A DNA stretch of 20,455 nt from a virus: positions 1 to 20,455 of IMG/VR virus record IMGVR_UViG_3300031999_000241, one strand, 5' to 3'. The notes below the pieces were generated by a model, which saw only the letters and a program-made list of their open reading frames with translations, searched no databases and was not told where the DNA came from. Shown in pieces: positions 1,533 to 17,911 of this stretch. Numbering within the stretch: position 1 is the first letter of the stretch; each line of letters opens with the position of its first letter. Position numbers and translations under genes: made by a program.

Positions 1533-3001
1533 TGTTCGACTGGCTCAAACGCATACGTGCTGTCGCCGGACCCGCAGGTGGCGGGCTCCGGATGGCGGTG
1601 CGCTTCGTGCGGGGCCGATATGATGCCGCACAGACGACCGATGGCAACCGCAAGCACTGGGCGGGGGCCGACGGCCTGTCGGCCGATGCCGCTGCAAGCG
1701 CCGAGGTCCGGCGCATCCTGCGGAACAGGGCCCGGTACGAGGTGGCAAACAACTCCTATGTCCGGGGAATCGTCCTGACGCTCGCAAACGACGTGGTCGG
1801 CACAGGGCCGCGGCTCCAGATGCTCACCGCCGGCGCCGAGGCCAATCGCGCGATCGAGCAGGAATTCATGCGCTGGGCCACGCGGGTGGGCCTCGCCGCC
1901 AAACTGCGCACCATGCGGATGGCCCGGGCGCAGGACGGCGAGGCGTTTGCCCTCCTCATCTCCAACGAAAACCTCAATTCCCCGGTGACGCTGGACCTCA
2001 GGCTCATTGAGGCCGACCAGGTCGCCACCCCGGACTTCTCCCAGACCACGTTTGCCGACCCCCGCGCGGTCGACGGCATCTCCTTCGACCCCTTCGGCAA
2101 CCCGGTGGCCTACTACGTCTTGAAGACACATCCGGGCGCCAAGGTGTCCTTGAGCCTTGACTACGACCGCGTGCCGGCGGAGTGGGTGATTCACTGGTTC
2201 CGGGCCGACAGGCCGGGCCAGCATCGGGGCATTCCCGACATTACGCCCGCCCTGCCGATCTTCGCGCAGCTCCGGCGCTTCACGTCGGCCGTCCTGGATG
2301 CCGCCGAGACGGCGGCCAACATCTCTGGCACGGTCGAGACCGACGCCCCGCCCAACGGCGAGGCGGAGCCCATCGACCCGATGGACACCATCGAACTCGA
2401 GCGGAACATGCTGCTGACGCTCCCCGGCGGCTGGAAGATGAGCCAGGTGCGGCCCGAGCAGCCGGCGACGACCTACGTCGAGTTTGTGCGTGAGAAGTTG
2501 AACGAGGCCGCCCGGTGCCTGAACATGCCGCGCAACATCGCCCTGTGCGATTCGTCGGCCTACAACTACGCCTCGGGGCGGCTCGACCACCAGACGTACT
2601 TCAAGTCTATCCGCGTGGAGCAGGCCCACCTGGAAGACATGGTGCTTGACCGCATGCTGGACGCCTGGCTGCGGGAGGCGGTGCGGGTGCCCGGCCTCCT
2701 GCCGGCGTCGGCGCGGGCGCTCCTCAATCACCCCCACCAGTGGTTCTGGGACGGGATGGAGCACGTGGACCCCGCCAAAGAGGCCAACGCCCAGGCCACG
2801 CGCCTGGCCAGTCACACGACGACCCTTGCCAGCGAGTATGCGAAAGAGGGCAAGGACTGGGAGACGGAACTGCGGCAGCGGGCGAAAGAAGTCGCGCTGA
2901 TGAAGGAACTCGGCCTCTCAATGGCCGAGGCCCAGCCAAAGCCTGCTCAGCCGCAGGTAGATGAGGAAACGGACAGTGAAGACCAGCGACGCGCCGCGTG
3001 A
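1532..3001 (+). CDS. Phage portal protein, lambda gpB family
   Basis: The portal forms the dodecameric ring at one capsid vertex through which DNA enters and leaves. The protein is about 489 residues, a usual length for the lambda portal family. Diagnostic segments are the N-terminal RYEVANNSYVRGIVLTLAND helix, the VGTGPRLQ motif just after it, the central RPGQHRGIPDITPAL segment followed by the ETAANISG stem region, and the C-terminal PRNIALCDSSAYNYASGRLD motif, which matches the family's nYSSaR-type signature. I chose the ATG at 1532 because it overlaps the preceding stop as TGATG; a GTG lies one codon upstream at 1529. The last 41 bases overlap the capsid gene. The C-terminal tail is acidic and Gln/Pro-rich. 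Confidence 0.9.
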   Translation: MFDWLKRIRAVAGPAGGGLRMAVRFVRGRYDAAQTTDGNRKHWAGADGLSADAAASAEVRRILRNRARYEVANNSYVRGIVLTLANDVVGTGPRLQMLTAGAEANRAIEQEFMRWATRVGLAAKLRTMRMARAQDGEAFALLISNENLNSPVTLDLRLIEADQVATPDFSQTTFADPRAVDGISFDPFGNPVAYYVLKTHPGAKVSLSLDYDRVPAEWVIHWFRADRPGQHRGIPDITPALPIFAQLRRFTSAVLDAAETAANISGTVETDAPPNGEAEPIDPMDTIELERNMLLTLPGGWKMSQVRPEQPATTYVEFVREKLNEAARCLNMPRNIALCDSSAYNYASGRLDHQTYFKSIRVEQAHLEDMVLDRMLDAWLREAVRVPGLLPASARALLNHPHQWFWDGMEHVDPAKEANAQATRLASHTTTLASEYAKEGKDWETELRQRAKEVALMKELGLSMAEAQPKPAQPQVDEETDSEDQRRAA

Positions 3002-4964
3002 ACTCAAGTTCATCGCGGCCATCAACATGGAGGCGGCGGCCGGCCCCGATGCCCAAGCCGCGCGGCCACGCCGGTTCCACATGGACGCCTACAGCGGCGG
3101 CACCCTGGCGATTGCCGGGTGGCGGTTCCCGGTCGTCGTGGACCTGAACGGCCTGACCGTGCGCGGCGGCGCCAAGGTCTACCTCGACCACGATCGGGCT
3201 GCTCGCGTGGGGCACATCGACGGCATACAGGTTGAGCACGGGGGGCTTCGGGTGTCGGGTGTGATCTCGTCCACCACGCAAGCGGCCCGCGAGGTCGTGG
3301 CCGACGCCGACAACGGGTATCCGTGGCAGGCGAGCATCGGGGCCTCGGTGCGCGAGGTCGAGTTCGTGGGCGAGGGCAAGATGGTGACCGTAAACGGGCG
3401 CGAGTTCGCCGGGCCTTTGAATGTGGCGCGGCGTGCGTCGCTTCAGGAAGTGAGTTTCGTGGGCAACGGCGCGGACGATGCGACGTCCGCCAGCATCGCG
3501 GCGGGAATCGCCGGGGAGAGACTACAGATGGACGGCACCGACAAGACTGTGGAGACGCAGGAGAAGCAGGACACGCCGGAGGCGGGCGCTCAGGTGCAGG
3601 CCCAGGCCCTGGCAGGGGCGGATGACGCCGTGGTGGTCGCCGCCGACCCGGTGGCCGAGATGCGGGCGAAGGCCGCGGCGGAAGAGGAGCGGATCACCGT
3701 CGTGCGGAAGGTCTGCGGGGGCGACCACGCGGACATCGCGGCCCGCGCGATCAAGGAGGGCTGGGACACCACGAAGACGGAACTGGAGGTCCTGCGGGCC
3801 TCGCGGCCCAAGGCCCCCGCGGCCCACGTCGTGGACCAGACGGTCAACGGCACGGTCCTGGAGGCCGCCTGCCTGCTTACCGCAGGCCTTGCCGGCGCCG
3901 AGAAGCAGTATGAGGAGAAAACGCTCGACGCGGCCAGCAAGCGGTTCCGCGGCGGCATCGGCCTCCAGGAGTTGCTCCTGGAGGCCGCGTGGGCCAATGG
4001 CTACGCCGGCCGCAACTTCCGCAACTCGCGCGAGGTTCTCAGGTTCGCCTTCGCGCGGGACATCCAGGCGGGCTTCTCGACCATCGACATCGGCGGCATC
4101 CTCTCGAACGTCGCCAACAAGTTCTTGCTCGATGGCTTCTTCAGCGTCGAGCGCACGTGGCGGAATATCTGCGCCGTGCGGAACGTCGGCGACTTTAAGA
4201 CCGTCACGTCCTACCGCCTCATCGGCGCCGACCAGTACCAGCCGGTAGCCCCTGGCGGGGAACTGAAGCACGGGACCCTGGGCGAGGAGCAGTACACGAA
4301 CAAGGCCGACACGTTCGGCCTCCTGCTGTCCATCGACCGGCGTGACATGATCAACGACGACCTGGGGGCGATCACGCTCGTGCCCCGCAAACTCGGGCGC
4401 GGGTCGGGTCTCAAGATCCATGACGTGTTCTGGACCATCTTCCTGGCCAACTCGTCGTTCTTCACCAGCGGCAACAAGAACTACCTCACGGGCGCCGACA
4501 CGGCCCTGACCATCGACGGCCTCACGAAGGCCGAGGTGATGTTCCTGGACCAGGTGGACTCGGACGGGAAGCCCATCGGCATCATGCCGGCGATCCTCCT
4601 GGTGCCCACGGCGCTGAGCGCGATGGGCACGCAGCTCTTTAAGTCGCTGGAGATCCGTGACACGACCGCCAGCACCAAGTACCCCATCGCCAACCCGCAC
4701 CAGGGCAAGTTCCGCGCCGAGGTCAGCCGGTACCTGGCGAACACGAAGTACACCGGCGCGAGCGCGAAGGCGTGGTATCTCCTGGCCGATCCGGCGGACC
4801 TGCCGGTGATCGAGGTGGCGTTCCTGAACGGCCAGGAGTCGCCGACCATCGAGACGGCCGACGCAGACTTCAACGTCCTCGGCATCCAGATGCGCGGCTA
4901 CCACGACTTCGGCGTGGCCCTCCAGGATCCGCGGGGCGGGCTGAAGGCCAAAGGGGAGGCGTAG
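2961..4964 (+). CDS. Prohead protease - major capsid protein fusion (Mu gpT-like capsid domain)
   Basis: A 667-residue fusion. Residues about 40-185 look like an HK97/S78-type prohead protease: H77 in YLDHDR, S125 in WQASIGASV and E163 in LQEVSF are the likely catalytic triad, in the order and spacing of that family. Residues about 190-300 are Ala/Glu/Gln-rich and scaffold-like. Residues about 330-667 resemble the Mu gpT-like major head protein (FFSVERTWRNICAVRNVGDF, the QPVAPGGELKHG segment, DRRDMINDD, and a C-terminal GYHDFGVALQDPRGG). The start is uncertain: ATG 2961 overlaps the portal by 41 bases, while GTG 2976 has a better-placed GAGGAAA. An in-frame ATG at 3528, codon 190, sits 7 bases after GGGGAGAG and may start a separate scaffold-capsid product. 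Confidence 0.85.
   Translation: MRKRTVKTSDAPRELKFIAAINMEAAAGPDAQAARPRRFHMDAYSGGTLAIAGWRFPVVVDLNGLTVRGGAKVYLDHDRAARVGHIDGIQVEHGGLRVSGVISSTTQAAREVVADADNGYPWQASIGASVREVEFVGEGKMVTVNGREFAGPLNVARRASLQEVSFVGNGADDATSASIAAGIAGERLQMDGTDKTVETQEKQDTPEAGAQVQAQALAGADDAVVVAADPVAEMRAKAAAEEERITVVRKVCGGDHADIAARAIKEGWDTTKTELEVLRASRPKAPAAHVVDQTVNGTVLEAACLLTAGLAGAEKQYEEKTLDAASKRFRGGIGLQELLLEAAWANGYAGRNFRNSREVLRFAFARDIQAGFSTIDIGGILSNVANKFLLDGFFSVERTWRNICAVRNVGDFKTVTSYRLIGADQYQPVAPGGELKHGTLGEEQYTNKADTFGLLLSIDRRDMINDDLGAITLVPRKLGRGSGLKIHDVFWTIFLANSSFFTSGNKNYLTGADTALTIDGLTKAEVMFLDQVDSDGKPIGIMPAILLVPTALSAMGTQLFKSLEIRDTTASTKYPIANPHQGKFRAEVSRYLANTKYTGASAKAWYLLADPADLPVIEVAFLNGQESPTIETADADFNVLGIQMRGYHDFGVALQDPRGGLKAKGEA
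3514..3530 (+). promoter_or_regulatory. Candidate internal ribosome-binding site and start inside the protease-capsid gene
   Basis: GGGGAGAG is followed 7 bases later by an in-frame ATG at 3528-3530 (codon 190). It falls exactly at the boundary between the protease-like domain and the Ala/Glu-rich scaffold-like segment. Lambda uses a similar nested in-frame start (Nu3 inside C) to make scaffold without protease. Use of this start is inferred from the sequence only. Confidence 0.4.
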
Positions 4965-6919: not shown

Positions 6920-7174
6920 ATGAACAATGTCCTGATGCGGAAGGTGAACGTCACCGCCGGTTACCAGCCGCTCGCCTCGGCGGAGACGGTGGTCACGGTG
7001 ACCATCTCCTGCCCGCCCACGAACGCGGCGGTGGTGTACTTGAAGGGCGACGACGGCGCTGACGTTCCTTGCGTGCCTGGCGAATGGCACACGCTGGTCG
7101 GCGTCAACCTGGCCGACATCCAGGTCAAGGGCACGGTGGGCGACTACGTTACGGTCGTCGGGGGATCGTGGTGA
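6920..7174 (+). CDS. Small beta-rich hypothetical virion protein
   Basis: An 84-residue protein starting at ATG 6920, with GAGAGG just upstream, and ending in TGA that overlaps the next ATG (TGATG). It has no clear helix, Cys at two positions, and alternating hydrophobic residues (ETVVTVTISCP, AAVVYLKGDDG, WHTLVGVNLADIQVKG), suggesting a single immunoglobulin-like or beta-sandwich domain. It is co-translated with the collar fibre gene and may be a small fibre-attachment or decoration protein. I do not recognise the family. Confidence 0.55.
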   Translation: MNNVLMRKVNVTAGYQPLASAETVVTVTISCPPTNAAVVYLKGDDGADVPCVPGEWHTLVGVNLADIQVKGTVGDYVTVVGGSW

Positions 7175-7791
7175 TGCCTTACGGAATGTGGAACGCGCCA
7201 GGGAGCATCACGGCGGCCCACCTGGCCGCCGGCGCCGCCGCGGCGAACCTCGCGGACGGCAGCGTTGCCGCGGCGAAACTGGCCGCAGGGGCAGCCTTGG
7301 CGAACCTGGCCGAGGCGTCCGTCCCGCTCGCGAAGCTTAAGGAACTGTATCCGGTCGGCTCCGTCGTGGAGTGGGTCGGCACGTTCGACGCCAGCCACAA
7401 ACCGGATGCCGGCGAGTGGAAGGAGTGCGACGGCTCGGTCCTCGACAAGACGGTCTACCCGGACCTCTACGCCCTCTTCGGCGCCAACAGGTGGGCCAAG
7501 GACTCCGGCAACTACTTCCTCATCCCCAACTTCAAACGCAAGGTTGCGGTCGGTCGGGACGTGGGCGGAGTCTGTACCATGATCGAAGTCGGGGGGCACC
7601 TGGACGGCTGCGGCAACTGGTGCGGCTACGCCGGCGCCGGCGGGGCCGAGACGTCGACCGTGGCCGGCGTCGTCCTTGGCCAGTCCAATTCCTGCGGCAC
7701 CTATTACCTGACCTACGGCAGTCAGTCCGTCTCAATCCTTCAGCCTTACGTCACCGTCTACAAACTCCTCAAGGTGAAAGCGGCGGCCTGA
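7174..7791 (+). CDS. Phage tail collar-domain fibre protein
   Basis: A 205-residue protein. The first 45 residues carry repeats of the GS(I/V)xAAxLAxG type (HLAAG, NLADGSV, KLAAG, NLAEASV), which form a thin fibre shaft. Residues about 50-110 match the tail collar domain: LYPVGSVVEWVGTF, then GEWKECDGSVLDKTVYPDLYALFG and NYFLIPNFKRKVAVG. The C-terminal part is Gly/Cys-rich (GGHLDGCGNWCGYAG) and ends in QPYVTVYKLLKV, the typical collar-protein ending. Such proteins tip short fibres that bind receptors. I chose ATG 7174 because it overlaps the preceding stop; GTG codons at 7168 and 7171 are alternatives. The next gene, a likely glycosyltransferase, starts in its stop codon. Confidence 0.85.
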   Translation: MPYGMWNAPGSITAAHLAAGAAAANLADGSVAAAKLAAGAALANLAEASVPLAKLKELYPVGSVVEWVGTFDASHKPDAGEWKECDGSVLDKTVYPDLYALFGANRWAKDSGNYFLIPNFKRKVAVGRDVGGVCTMIEVGGHLDGCGNWCGYAGAGGAETSTVAGVVLGQSNSCGTYYLTYGSQSVSILQPYVTVYKLLKVKAAA

Positions 7792-8683: not shown

Positions 8684-9121
8684 ATGGCGAAGATCGGCGC
8701 GGAACTGAAACTGTACTACTGCGTCGCCGGCATCGGCGGCACGCCCTCCTGGACCGAGGCGACCAAGGCCCGCGACGTGACGTTGGACTTGAATCGCGGC
8801 GAGGCCGACGGCACCACGCGCGGCAGCGGCGGCTGGAAGCAGAGCATCCCGACGTTGAAAGAGGCGAGCGTCGAGTTCGAGTGCGTGTGGGACACCAGCG
8901 ACCCGGCCTACGTCGCCCTGCGCGACGCTTGGCTGAACGGCACAGTTCTCGGCATGGCCGTGATGGACGGTGATATCGAGGAGGCCGGCGTCGAGAGCCT
9001 GTGGGCCGACATGGCGGTCCTGAAGTTCCAGCGCAAGGAACCGCTGGACGGCCTGGTGACGGCCGCGATCACCGTCAAGCCGGGCATGTCGGCCAATCCG
9101 CCGACCTGGAAAACCATCTAG
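8684..9121 (+). CDS. Major tail tube protein
   Basis: A 145-residue protein that polymerises into the tail tube. It begins MAKIGAELKLYY, has the motif KARDVTLDLNRGEADGTTRG near residue 35, then SIPTLKEASVEFECVWD and ALRDAWLNGTVLGMAVMDGD, and ends with a strand-rich part (LDGLVTAAITVKPG). This order (N-terminal strand, D-V-T-L-D-L-N-R motif, helix before a strand pair) fits TP901-1-like and related tail tube proteins. GGG of AAAGGG lies about 10 bases before ATG 8684. The gene precedes another structural gene and the tail chaperones, as in siphoviruses. Confidence 0.8.
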   Translation: MAKIGAELKLYYCVAGIGGTPSWTEATKARDVTLDLNRGEADGTTRGSGGWKQSIPTLKEASVEFECVWDTSDPAYVALRDAWLNGTVLGMAVMDGDIEEAGVESLWADMAVLKFQRKEPLDGLVTAAITVKPGMSANPPTWKTI

Positions 9122-9716: not shown

Positions 9717-10199
9717 GTGGGCAAGTTCAAAGACAACGTGGGCCGCGAGTGGGCCATCACCATCGCCGTCACCGACATGAAGCGCGTGCGGGCGCTGGCC
9801 CGGGTGGACCTCGTGGAGTGCGTCACCGGGGACCTCTGGCGCCGGATCGTCAACGACCCAGTGCTCCTCGCCGACGTGACCTTCGCCCTGGTGAAACCCC
9901 AGGCCGACGCCGCCAAGGTCAGCGACGAGGATTTCGGCCGCTCCATGTGGGGCGGCCCGCTGGCCGACGCCCTGGAGGCGTTGCAGGACGCCTTGACGGA
10001 TTTTTTCCCGAGCCATCAGCACCCGACGCTGATGGCCAGATACCTGGAGGCGGCCGAGGAGGTCCTGGCCAGGATCGGCGAGGCAAGGAAGGTGATGGGC
10101 CTGGAATCACGGCCGCCGGTCTCTGGCGATGGGCCTGGCGGACCGCCGGAATCGTCGGCGTCGACCCCGGCCCCCTCACCTTCCGCGAACTCGACTTGA
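9717..10199 (+). CDS. Tail assembly chaperone, first reading frame (gpG-like)
   Basis: A 160-residue protein, about the size of lambda gpG. The start is GTG 9717 with AAAGGAG about 8 bases upstream. It begins GKFKDNVGREWAITIAVTDM and has helices around residues 65-130 (FGRSMWGGPLADALEALQDA, ARYLEAAEEVLARIGEARKV). The codon pattern is strongly G/C-ending up to about codon 129 and then weakens into a Pro/Ser-rich tail just before the stop at 10197-10199. Position after the tube gene and upstream of the tape measure fits a chaperone that coats the tape measure during tail assembly. A T-TTT-TTC heptamer (10001-10007) lies in this frame, and a second coding frame follows at -1 (see separate entries). 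Confidence 0.65.
   Translation: MGKFKDNVGREWAITIAVTDMKRVRALARVDLVECVTGDLWRRIVNDPVLLADVTFALVKPQADAAKVSDEDFGRSMWGGPLADALEALQDALTDFFPSHQHPTLMARYLEAAEEVLARIGEARKVMGLESRPPVSGDGPGGPPESSASTPAPSPSANST
10001..10007 (+). promoter_or_regulatory. Candidate -1 frameshift slippery heptamer T-TTT-TTC
   Basis: In the chaperone frame, the codons GAT TTT TTC give the canonical X-XXY-YYZ arrangement. A shift of -1 here leads into the frame that encodes the gpT-like segment below. A run of six T is unusual in this gene, where GAC and TTC are the preferred codons. The open question is that the codon pattern stays that of the first frame for about 100 more bases, so the true slip may lie nearer 10,100. Confidence 0.4.
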
Positions 10200-10408
10200 T
10201 GCGCGACGGGCGCCTGCGGGCCTGGTGGCGAATGGCCGCCGAGCACATGGCGCTTCTGGCGAACTGCCATCGGGCGAGCAAGCGGGCGCACTGGTGGGTG
10301 CCGGCAGACTTCAATCCGTATGAGCGGAAGCCCCGCACGGGCATCCCCATCACGGCTGAGAATATCGAGATACTGAAAACGGTTTTCGTCAACGGAAAGG
10401 AGCCTTGA
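10106..10408 (+). CDS. Tail assembly chaperone, second reading frame (gpT-like), probably reached by -1 frameshift
   Basis: This frame lies at -1 relative to the first chaperone gene. From about 10106 its codon pattern looks coding and reads LWRWAWRTAGIVGVDPGPLT, then FRELDLMRDGRLRAWWRM, HMALLANCHRASKR and VPADFNPYERKP. The conserved-looking part starts upstream of any ATG, GTG or TTG in this frame, so a translational frameshift is the simplest way to express it, as in lambda gpGT. An alternative is a separate 69-residue product from ATG 10199, which overlaps the first frame's stop as TGATG. The listed start is where coding signal appears, not a start codon. The stop at 10406-10408 is one base before the next gene's ATG. 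Confidence 0.6.
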   Translation: MTAAGLWRWAWRTAGIVGVDPGPLTFRELDLMRDGRLRAWWRMAAEHMALLANCHRASKRAHWWVPADFNPYERKPRTGIPITAENIEILKTVFVNGKEP

Positions 10409-12661: not shown

Positions 12662-14008
12662 ATGGTCAGTGCCGGCGACATCCGGGCGGGCGGCGCTTAC
12701 GTCGAACTCGGTATCAAGGATTCCGCGTTCGACGAGCGCCTCGCCCGCAGCCAGGCCCGCCTCAAACAGTGGGTCGCCGAGAACGCCCGGGCCGCCGCCG
12801 CTCCCATCACCCGTGCCAACGAGGGGGCGCTGGCCGGCGCGGGTGCCGCGGGCGGGCCGGGCGGCTTCTTTCGGGGCAGTTTCCGAAGCGCCGAACTCTT
12901 CGAGGGGGGCATCCGGTTCGTGGCGGCCATCCAGGCGGCCAGGGTCGCCATCAAGGACGTGCAGATTTTCAGCGCCTTGGTGCGGGGCGACTTCGACGGG
13001 ATGCGCAAGGCCGCCGAGGCACTCCCCTTCGGCTTGGGCGAGGTCGTCAAGCAACTCTCGGGGCCGGTCGACGAATGGTGCAAGGGCATCGCCCTGCGGC
13101 TGACGGGCCTGGCGGACTTCACGTATGACAAGGGGGCCGCCCAGAAAGCCGCCCAGGACCGCAAGGCCGAAGTCGAGCAATACAATCGCTTCCTGCAAGC
13201 CTACGACGCCGCCGAGAAGGCCGTGCAGAAAGCCACCCTGTCGGCCCGCGAGTACGCCCGGTGGGAAGTCGAGGGCATGAAGTTGACCGAGCAGCAGGCG
13301 GGCAAGGTCCTGGCGCTCAAGTACAAGCAGATCGAGGCCGACGAGAACAAGCAGGCGGATCGCCAGCGGGCGGAGGCCGCCAAGCATTACAGCGATGAAC
13401 TCGCGAAGGCGATGGACGAGGTCGCCAAACTCAGGCTCGGTGAGGAAGGGTACATCGAGTATCAGGTCCGGGCCATGAACCTGACGGCCGAGGCCGCCCA
13501 GTCGCTCATCGGCTGGAAGAAGGAGGCCCTGCGGCTCGAAAAGGAACACAAGAAGGCCGAGGAAGATGCCCGCAAGGCCCGCCAGGCCGCCGAGGAGGCG
13601 GCGCGCGAGGAGCAGCGGTCGCGCCTCGAGGAGTTCGATGAGGCCGAACGCAACTTCAAGCGGTACGAGGAGGAGGCCGCCCGCCTCAAAGAAAGCCTGA
13701 TGTCGCCGAAAGAAAAGTTCGAGCGCCAGCGCGAACTCCTGACGGAACTCCGCGACGCCGAGATGATCACCCAGGACGAGTGGACCCGCGGCATCTACCA
13801 GGCGATGGAAGAGGCGGCCAAGGACATGCCTGACGAGGTAGAGCGCACCATCGGCGTCCGCGGCACGTTCAACGCCCTCCAGGCCGAGGCCCTGGGTGCG
13901 GGCGACGCCTCCGATGCCATCGCCCACAACACCGACAAGACTGCCAAGGCCGCCGAGAAGGTCGCCCGATTGATCGAAGAGTGGGGCGTCGCTCTGGAAT
14001 ACGGCTAG
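12662..14008 (+). CDS. Tape-measure-like coiled-coil protein
   Basis: A 448-residue protein starting at ATG 12662, nine bases after the previous stop. The N-terminus (IRAGGAYVELGIKDSAFDER) is the start seen in many planctomycete-type tail tape measures. A hydrophobic segment (FEGGIRFVAAIQAARVAIKD) follows, then about 250 residues of Lys/Glu/Ala-rich coiled coil, including EKEHKKAEEDARKARQ, and a C-terminus RGTFNALQAEALGAGDASDA with AHNTDKTAKAAEKVARLIEE, the typical tape-measure ending. It is short for the family; at about 1.5 angstroms per residue it would suggest a tail near 65-70 nm. The order chaperones, small genes, completion protein, tape measure supports the call. Confidence 0.7.
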   Translation: MVSAGDIRAGGAYVELGIKDSAFDERLARSQARLKQWVAENARAAAAPITRANEGALAGAGAAGGPGGFFRGSFRSAELFEGGIRFVAAIQAARVAIKDVQIFSALVRGDFDGMRKAAEALPFGLGEVVKQLSGPVDEWCKGIALRLTGLADFTYDKGAAQKAAQDRKAEVEQYNRFLQAYDAAEKAVQKATLSAREYARWEVEGMKLTEQQAGKVLALKYKQIEADENKQADRQRAEAAKHYSDELAKAMDEVAKLRLGEEGYIEYQVRAMNLTAEAAQSLIGWKKEALRLEKEHKKAEEDARKARQAAEEAAREEQRSRLEEFDEAERNFKRYEEEAARLKESLMSPKEKFERQRELLTELRDAEMITQDEWTRGIYQAMEEAAKDMPDEVERTIGVRGTFNALQAEALGAGDASDAIAHNTDKTAKAAEKVARLIEEWGVALEYG

Positions 14009-16858: not shown

Positions 16859-17911
16859 ATGGCGTACTACAAGGTGGAGTATCTGTCGTTGGTGATGGGG
16901 CTTACGACGTGCGGGGACACCAAGGGCTCCATGAGCGGCGTCAGCGTCGCCACGACGACGCCGGGCGGGGGTCCGGGCGGGACGGTGCTGAGTTCGGGCC
17001 AGTATGTATGGACCTTGCCGTTGTTATCGGCGAACGGTCCCGGGGTGGGGGGATGGGAGTTTGGGATTCAGTACCTGCGGTACAACGGGATCGACGGGGT
17101 GCTGGGGCCGAACTGGAACTATACGCAGAACATTCACCTAGAGGAAGATGTGGCCGGGTCGGTGGTGCTGGTGACGGGGGAGAACTTCCGGGAGCCGTTT
17201 GAGCCGGACCCGCATGACCCCTACCGGTACTTGTCGGATCAGAACAACACGGCGGCGGTGTTGACGCGGTCGCGGTACGGGCAGGACGAGTTCACGTTGA
17301 CGTCGTCGAAGGGGAACGTGACGAAGTTTTACGGCTTCAACACCGCGCTGCCGGGTCGGATCAAGAGCATCACGGACCGGTACGGCAATACGCAGACGTT
17401 CGTCTGGACGCGGACGGGGGCGGTGGACCAGTTGCTGAGCGTGACGGACGGGTACGGGCGGACGATGGAGTATCGGTATTACGGTTCGGAGGGGAAGCAC
17501 CGGCTGCGGGAGATCGAGGACTTTCTGGGCCGGAAGTTGAACTTCCAGTACGATGGCGAGGGGCGTCTGGCGGCGGTGGTGCTGCCGTCGATTGCGAAGG
17601 GGGCCGAGGGGAACACGTTCCCGGGCGGTACGGCCTATGTATTCGAGTACGACACGGCGAATCCTCGCGGGGACCGCAGGGACGACCTGATTCGGGTCTG
17701 GTTTCCGAACCAGGCGGCGCCCTACGTGGACGCGAACCGTGGACAGGAGTCGGGTGTACTCGGAAGCGAAGCCTCGCTACGAGGTGGCCTACGGCCAGAC
17801 CCCGGGGGAGGACTACGGGCGGGTCATTCGGGAGACGCGGGGAGACCCGAACGGGGGTCCGGGCGGGACGTACCGGATAGATTATCTGACGGGCGAGTTG
17901 CCGGCGAATGA
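16859..17911 (+). CDS. Rhs/YD-repeat protein, 5' part before a frame change
   Basis: The start is ATG 16859; an in-frame stop six bases upstream rules out an earlier start. Residues about 25-295 look like the N-terminal part of a planctomycete-type Rhs protein: a Gly-rich start (SVATTTPGGGPGG), QYVWTLPLLSANGPGVGGWE, FGIQYLRYN, WNYTQNIHLEEDVAGSVVL, RIKSITDRYGNTQTFVWTRT and the first YD-like units (DGYGRTMEYRYYG, FLGRKLNFQYDGEGRL). From about 17,735 this frame becomes out-of-frame (Gly/Arg/Pro-rich) until its stop at 17911, and the real protein continues one base over. There is no signal peptide. Third positions favour G over C, unlike the phage genes, suggesting a different origin. Confidence 0.7.
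   Translation: MAYYKVEYLSLVMGLTTCGDTKGSMSGVSVATTTPGGGPGGTVLSSGQYVWTLPLLSANGPGVGGWEFGIQYLRYNGIDGVLGPNWNYTQNIHLEEDVAGSVVLVTGENFREPFEPDPHDPYRYLSDQNNTAAVLTRSRYGQDEFTLTSSKGNVTKFYGFNTALPGRIKSITDRYGNTQTFVWTRTGAVDQLLSVTDGYGRTMEYRYYGSEGKHRLREIEDFLGRKLNFQYDGEGRLAAVVLPSIAKGAEGNTFPGGTAYVFEYDTANPRGDRRDDLIRVWFPNQAAPYVDANRGQESGVLGSEASLRGGLRPDPGGGLRAGHSGDAGRPERGSGRDVPDRLSDGRVAGE

Follow-up and report, generated by a model that had tools for sequence, protein, structure and literature searches.

How is a reading frame expressed when it overlaps another frame and has no start codon in reach? This question is raised by positions 9717–10408 of the virus record IMGVR_UViG_3300031999_000241, classed in IMG/VR, which we analyzed over its whole stretch of 20,455 bases (67.5% G+C; hereafter, the window). 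A frame-0 ORF with a GTG start (9717–10199, plus strand; 160 aa), denoted G, overlaps a −1-frame ORF that stays open to 10408 and carries the domain denoted T (10112–10408, plus strand; stop codon TGA at 10406–10408). The original prediction was that the two form a tail chaperone pair expressed by a −1 frameshift, following the lambda gpG/gpGT logic. The analysis supports this view: T is in the −1 frame relative to G in 98 of the 98 loci with T, counting viral contigs, MAGs and the window. Judging from sequence comparison, the region very probably codes for a pair of lambda-type tail assembly chaperones made through a −1 slip on the heptamer T_TTT_TTC.

Gene layout and relatives

The window encodes a terminase, a lambda-type portal, a protease-capsid fusion, a head decoration protein, the major tail protein and further tail genes. 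The major tail protein gene (8684–9121, plus strand; phrog_1407, E = 1.8e-14; PF06199) is clear upstream of G and T. Downstream, a probable tape measure protein (12662–14008, plus strand) is weakly assigned from its size, composition and position, with a phrog_167 match of E = 0.64 only. The head maturation protease and the major capsid protein are fused in one ORF (2961–4964; phrog_4523, PF25209), and a tail-fibre-like protein with a collar domain is encoded at 7102–7791, upstream of the major tail protein. At the contig end (16859–17911 and 17739–20453), an RHS-repeat protein (PF05593, five repeats) is split across two frames near 17,720–17,740, reflecting either a broken gene or a sequencing error.

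Using a G profile as bait, and never the slippery DNA, we collected 80 viral loci and 18 MAG loci, the latter mostly from Planctomycetota, with one from Fimbriimonadales and two from other uncultured bacteria. The lineage appears to infect Planctomycetota, for which few phages have been studied. T is present in the window and in 97 of the 98 related loci, the exception being L014, in which the sequence stops short of T; T alone, used as the query in viral contigs, recovered no relative. Because the loci are related by descent, their counts do not represent independent events, and a non-redundant set of 42 representative loci lessens this kinship but does not remove it.

For ~150 nt upstream of the T domain, the −1 frame of the window contains no ATG, GTG or TTG, and most related loci likewise have none within 150 nt. 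The original prediction of −1 coding-like sequence lacking a start codon therefore stands, among homologs as well as in the window, but this sequence sets in at about 10,110 (AAGLWRW), little upstream of GIVGVDPGPLTFREL.

The candidate slip site and its surroundings

The heptamer T_TTT_TTC lies in codon register at 10001–10007 (plus strand), exactly where it was originally placed, and TTTTTTC occurs nowhere else in the window. A second in-register heptamer, T_TTC_CCG (10004–10010, plus strand), overlaps it, and the two are among only six in-register X_XXZ_ZZN heptamers in the ~3,780 codons of the window genes, where only 10 of the 114 Phe codons are TTT. No in-register heptamer follows later in the G gene of the window. 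The codon choice at this position is uniform among relatives: each of the 31 distinct loci that have Phe-Phe at the slip position encodes the pair by TTT-TTC, compared with 82 TTC and 19 TTT codons (19/101) for Phe elsewhere in the genes of these loci, and has a preceding codon that ends in T (31/31). Across representatives outside the Tyr clade, the codon preceding Phe ends in T in 37 of 37, against a background of 7.0%.

The distribution of stop codons in the −1 frame changes at the same position. Upstream of the site, 71 stops were found in 3818 codons (~89 expected from synonymous shuffling), and between the site and T, a single stop in 2003 codons (41.7 expected; the minimum among 1000 shuffles was 26). 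The +1 frame shows no comparable loss, with 72 stops downstream of the site. Furthermore, L071 and L072 carry a −1 stop immediately upstream of the site, so that an earlier slip is excluded in these two loci.

RNA folding also peaks here. The lowest folding z of the gene, relative to synonymous shuffles, was obtained for the 42-nt segment directly 3′ of the site (mean −1.18 across the 42 representatives), reaching −2.2 in the TTC-TGC clade. In the window, a putative stimulatory hairpin, GCCATCAGC/GCTGATGGC (10012–10036, plus strand; 9 bp, 7-nt loop), starts 4 nt past the heptamer, compared with a published spacing of 5–8 nt (PMC4066793), and the 68-nt stretch containing it has a z of −2.78 against dinucleotide shuffles. 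No single RNA structure is common to all clades and, because the hairpins differ in sequence among clades, the folding evidence is one of position, not of covariation.

Many relatives have GGAGGAA ~8 nt 5′ of the heptamer, and a Shine-Dalgarno-like GAG-GAA is located ~8 nt upstream of the site in 15 of the 22 loci with Glu-Glu, more often than predicted by codon usage (294 GAG, 124 GAA). The window does not have this internal GAGGAA; a weak AGGA (9985–9988, plus strand), 12 nt 5′ of the heptamer, is a tentative counterpart.

Taken together, codon choice, the stop boundary, RNA folding and, in relatives, the Shine-Dalgarno-like element make the heptamer at 10001–10007 the best-supported candidate for the slip site. 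The slippage itself, its efficiency and the roles of the products we infer as follows. Most ribosomes would stay in frame 0 and produce G, and a minority would stall at the 10012–10036 hairpin and slip one base back on T_TTT_TTC, with tRNA-Phe re-pairing from UUU UUC to UUU UUU. These ribosomes would then translate, in the −1 frame, a linker of ~35 residues (10007–10111, plus strand), which is stop-free, rich in Gly, Pro, Asp and Arg and, from this composition, probably disordered, and continue into T, yielding a 230-aa GT fusion with the predicted junction peptide DALTDFFPEPSAPDADGQ. By analogy with lambda, from which the tail-assembly function is taken (reviewed in PMC5009743), G would coat the tape measure and T would recruit the major tail protein.

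One stretch probably read in two frames

In the AlphaFold model of G, which is confident for residues 1–126, a helix (80–96) is followed by a turn at Phe-Phe-Pro, a further helix (99–126) and a low-confidence tail, so that the slip would coincide with this turn, which separates the final two helices. The last helix (10011–10094, plus strand) is predicted by the model and accompanied by an excess of frame-0 wobble changes in relatives. Among 88 pairs of relatives, substitution rates from the site to T were 0.095, 0.072 and 0.215 at positions 1–3, highest at the frame-0 wobble position, and from the T start 0.075, 0.216 and 0.125, with the −1 wobble dominant, also past the G stop. Thus, frame 0 is the selected frame up to the T start, in agreement with the frame-0 codon bias originally noted to about 10,105. 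This bias is accounted for if these bases encode a helix of G in one frame and a linker of the fusion in the other. Since the proposed slip lies far inside G, 189 nt before the G stop in the window (family median 195 nt, range 141–327), GT would be made without the last helix of G, which makes it possible to test if the two forms depend on the same part of the chaperone.

Three alternatives were judged unlikely. The first, which the original prediction also suggested in the form of a later and less obvious site, is a −1 slip near 10,085–10,110, just before the T domain, the heptamer being coincidental. It would fit the selection on frame 0, which persists as far as the T start, as well as the habit of known tail chaperones, in which the slip lies close to the zero-frame stop, on average 26 and 36 nt away in two phage sets (PMC10885494), 15 nt in lambda and 20 nt in P2. 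However, one −1 stop against 42 expected between the heptamer and T, the TTT-TTC choice in 31 of 31 loci, the folding peak at the heptamer and the lack of a later in-register heptamer in the window's G all contradict it, and we regard a later slip as improbable.

A change of frame by transcriptional slippage on the run of six Ts that T_TTT_TTC provides within a G+C-rich gene we rate marginally lower still. Six Ts are a short run for polymerase slippage, and relatives with TCT TTC TGC have the same −1 arrangement with a T3 run only; moreover, the 3′ hairpin, the codon register and the Shine-Dalgarno-like element point to the ribosome. Least probable of all is independent initiation of T without a frameshift, possibly at a rare ATC or ATT codon. 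An ATC at 10106 at the T start of the window and ATT or ATC just inside T in one clade could be cited for it, but the position of such codons is not conserved, they are absent from many loci, and the exclusion of −1 stops reaches far upstream of T.

Relation to known tail chaperones

Profile matches link T remotely to lambda T: 36 of 41 members matched PF06223 (Phage_tail_T, the lambda T family) at E ≤ 0.1, with a best E of 3.6e-5, although the best score seen, 24.6 bits, is under the curated Pfam cut-off of 25.9, and the window's own T has no PF06223 match. For G, no match to PF06894 (Phage_TAC_2, lambda G) was found among 41 members, nor to any TAC family in Pfam or PHROGs. Direct comparison of the window's G or T with Pfam, PHROGs and named phages gave no meaningful match, and profile comparison with lambda G and lambda T gave no signal (probability 0.4% for lambda G). 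A scan of 50,697 phage records returned no match to either protein; as far as tested, the original description of an unstudied phage group therefore holds.

In a Foldseek search of the G model against BFVD, ranks 2 and 3, the best named viral matches, were phage tail assembly chaperones with a probability of 1.00, the matches being modest (E = 0.008 and 0.029; TM 0.43–0.53). The PDB fold search gave no clear match, with Z of only 2.7 to ORF12 of lactococcal phage p2. For T, the fold search returned weak matches only, although the first nine include N15 GT and two proteins labeled “Minor tail T domain”. A tail chaperone pair is the probable identity, given the family matches of T and the model matches of G together with the position and the frameshift itself.

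The pair resembles lambda G/GT (slippery sequence GGGAAAG) in that a −1 frameshift would fuse a chaperone to a T domain of the same Pfam family (a weak match), in genes following the major tail protein and, if its weak assignment holds here, preceding the tape measure. It differs from lambda in the heptamer, in the far greater distance to the stop (189 versus 15 nt), in the predicted loss of the last helix of G from GT, and in a G protein without detectable sequence similarity to lambda G. P2 E/E+E′ likewise involves a −1 slip in the gene preceding the tape measure, 20 nt before the E stop as opposed to 189 nt; its sequence relation was examined by the phage-record scan only, with no match. 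A slip near the 3′ end is usual but not strictly defining, and because the slip is not located there in G, we call the pair a variant and not a plain lambda-type member. We infer that −1 frameshifting in the manner of lambda G/GT is programmed and well conserved here, at a site that lies, unusually, in mid-gene; this would extend G/GT frameshifting to phages of Planctomycetota and imply that the slip need not sit at the end of G. Prediction tools with a preference for slips close to the zero-frame stop, PRFect among them, would probably overlook a mid-gene slip.

Conservation of the heptamer among homologs is partial: T_TTT_TTC is present in 26 of the 42 representatives, and the rest have other motifs at the same position, namely T_TTC_TGC (7), T_TTT_TCC (3), CGT_TTC_TCC (1) and TAT/TAC_TTC_CCG (5). 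Some clades thus appear to substitute U_UUC, U_UUU or C_CCG tetramers for the heptamer at the homologous position. In E. coli, U_UUU_UUC is among the efficient heptamers, and of the tetramers U_UUC is second best, U_UUU third best and C_CCG weak (PMC4066793). The motif types, the stimulatory hairpin and the upstream Shine-Dalgarno-like element are shared with the bacterial Z_ZZN and X_XXZ_ZZN −1 motifs described in that work; the difference is that several of these motifs are found here at a single homologous position within a gene family, which offers a natural series in which the trade-off between motif and hairpin could be measured.

The large TAC_TTC_CCG clade (L023–L081) has no heptamer and carries a strong hairpin, CCGTCTTC/GGAAGGCGG, just 3′ of the homologous position. 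Its only slippery motif is the weak C_CCG tetramer, and a shift of this clade at the homologous position is the least certain step. A further reading, which we hold with moderate confidence, is that of a frameshift that acts as a domain swap, one stretch being read twice as the helix of G and the linker of GT, on a slippery motif that changes between clades, including the C_CCG clade with its strong hairpin. A case that speaks against the frameshift is a MAG contig (L097, 3744–4076), in which G has the heptamer and an insertion carrying a −1 stop precedes T, the sole such case among the related loci.
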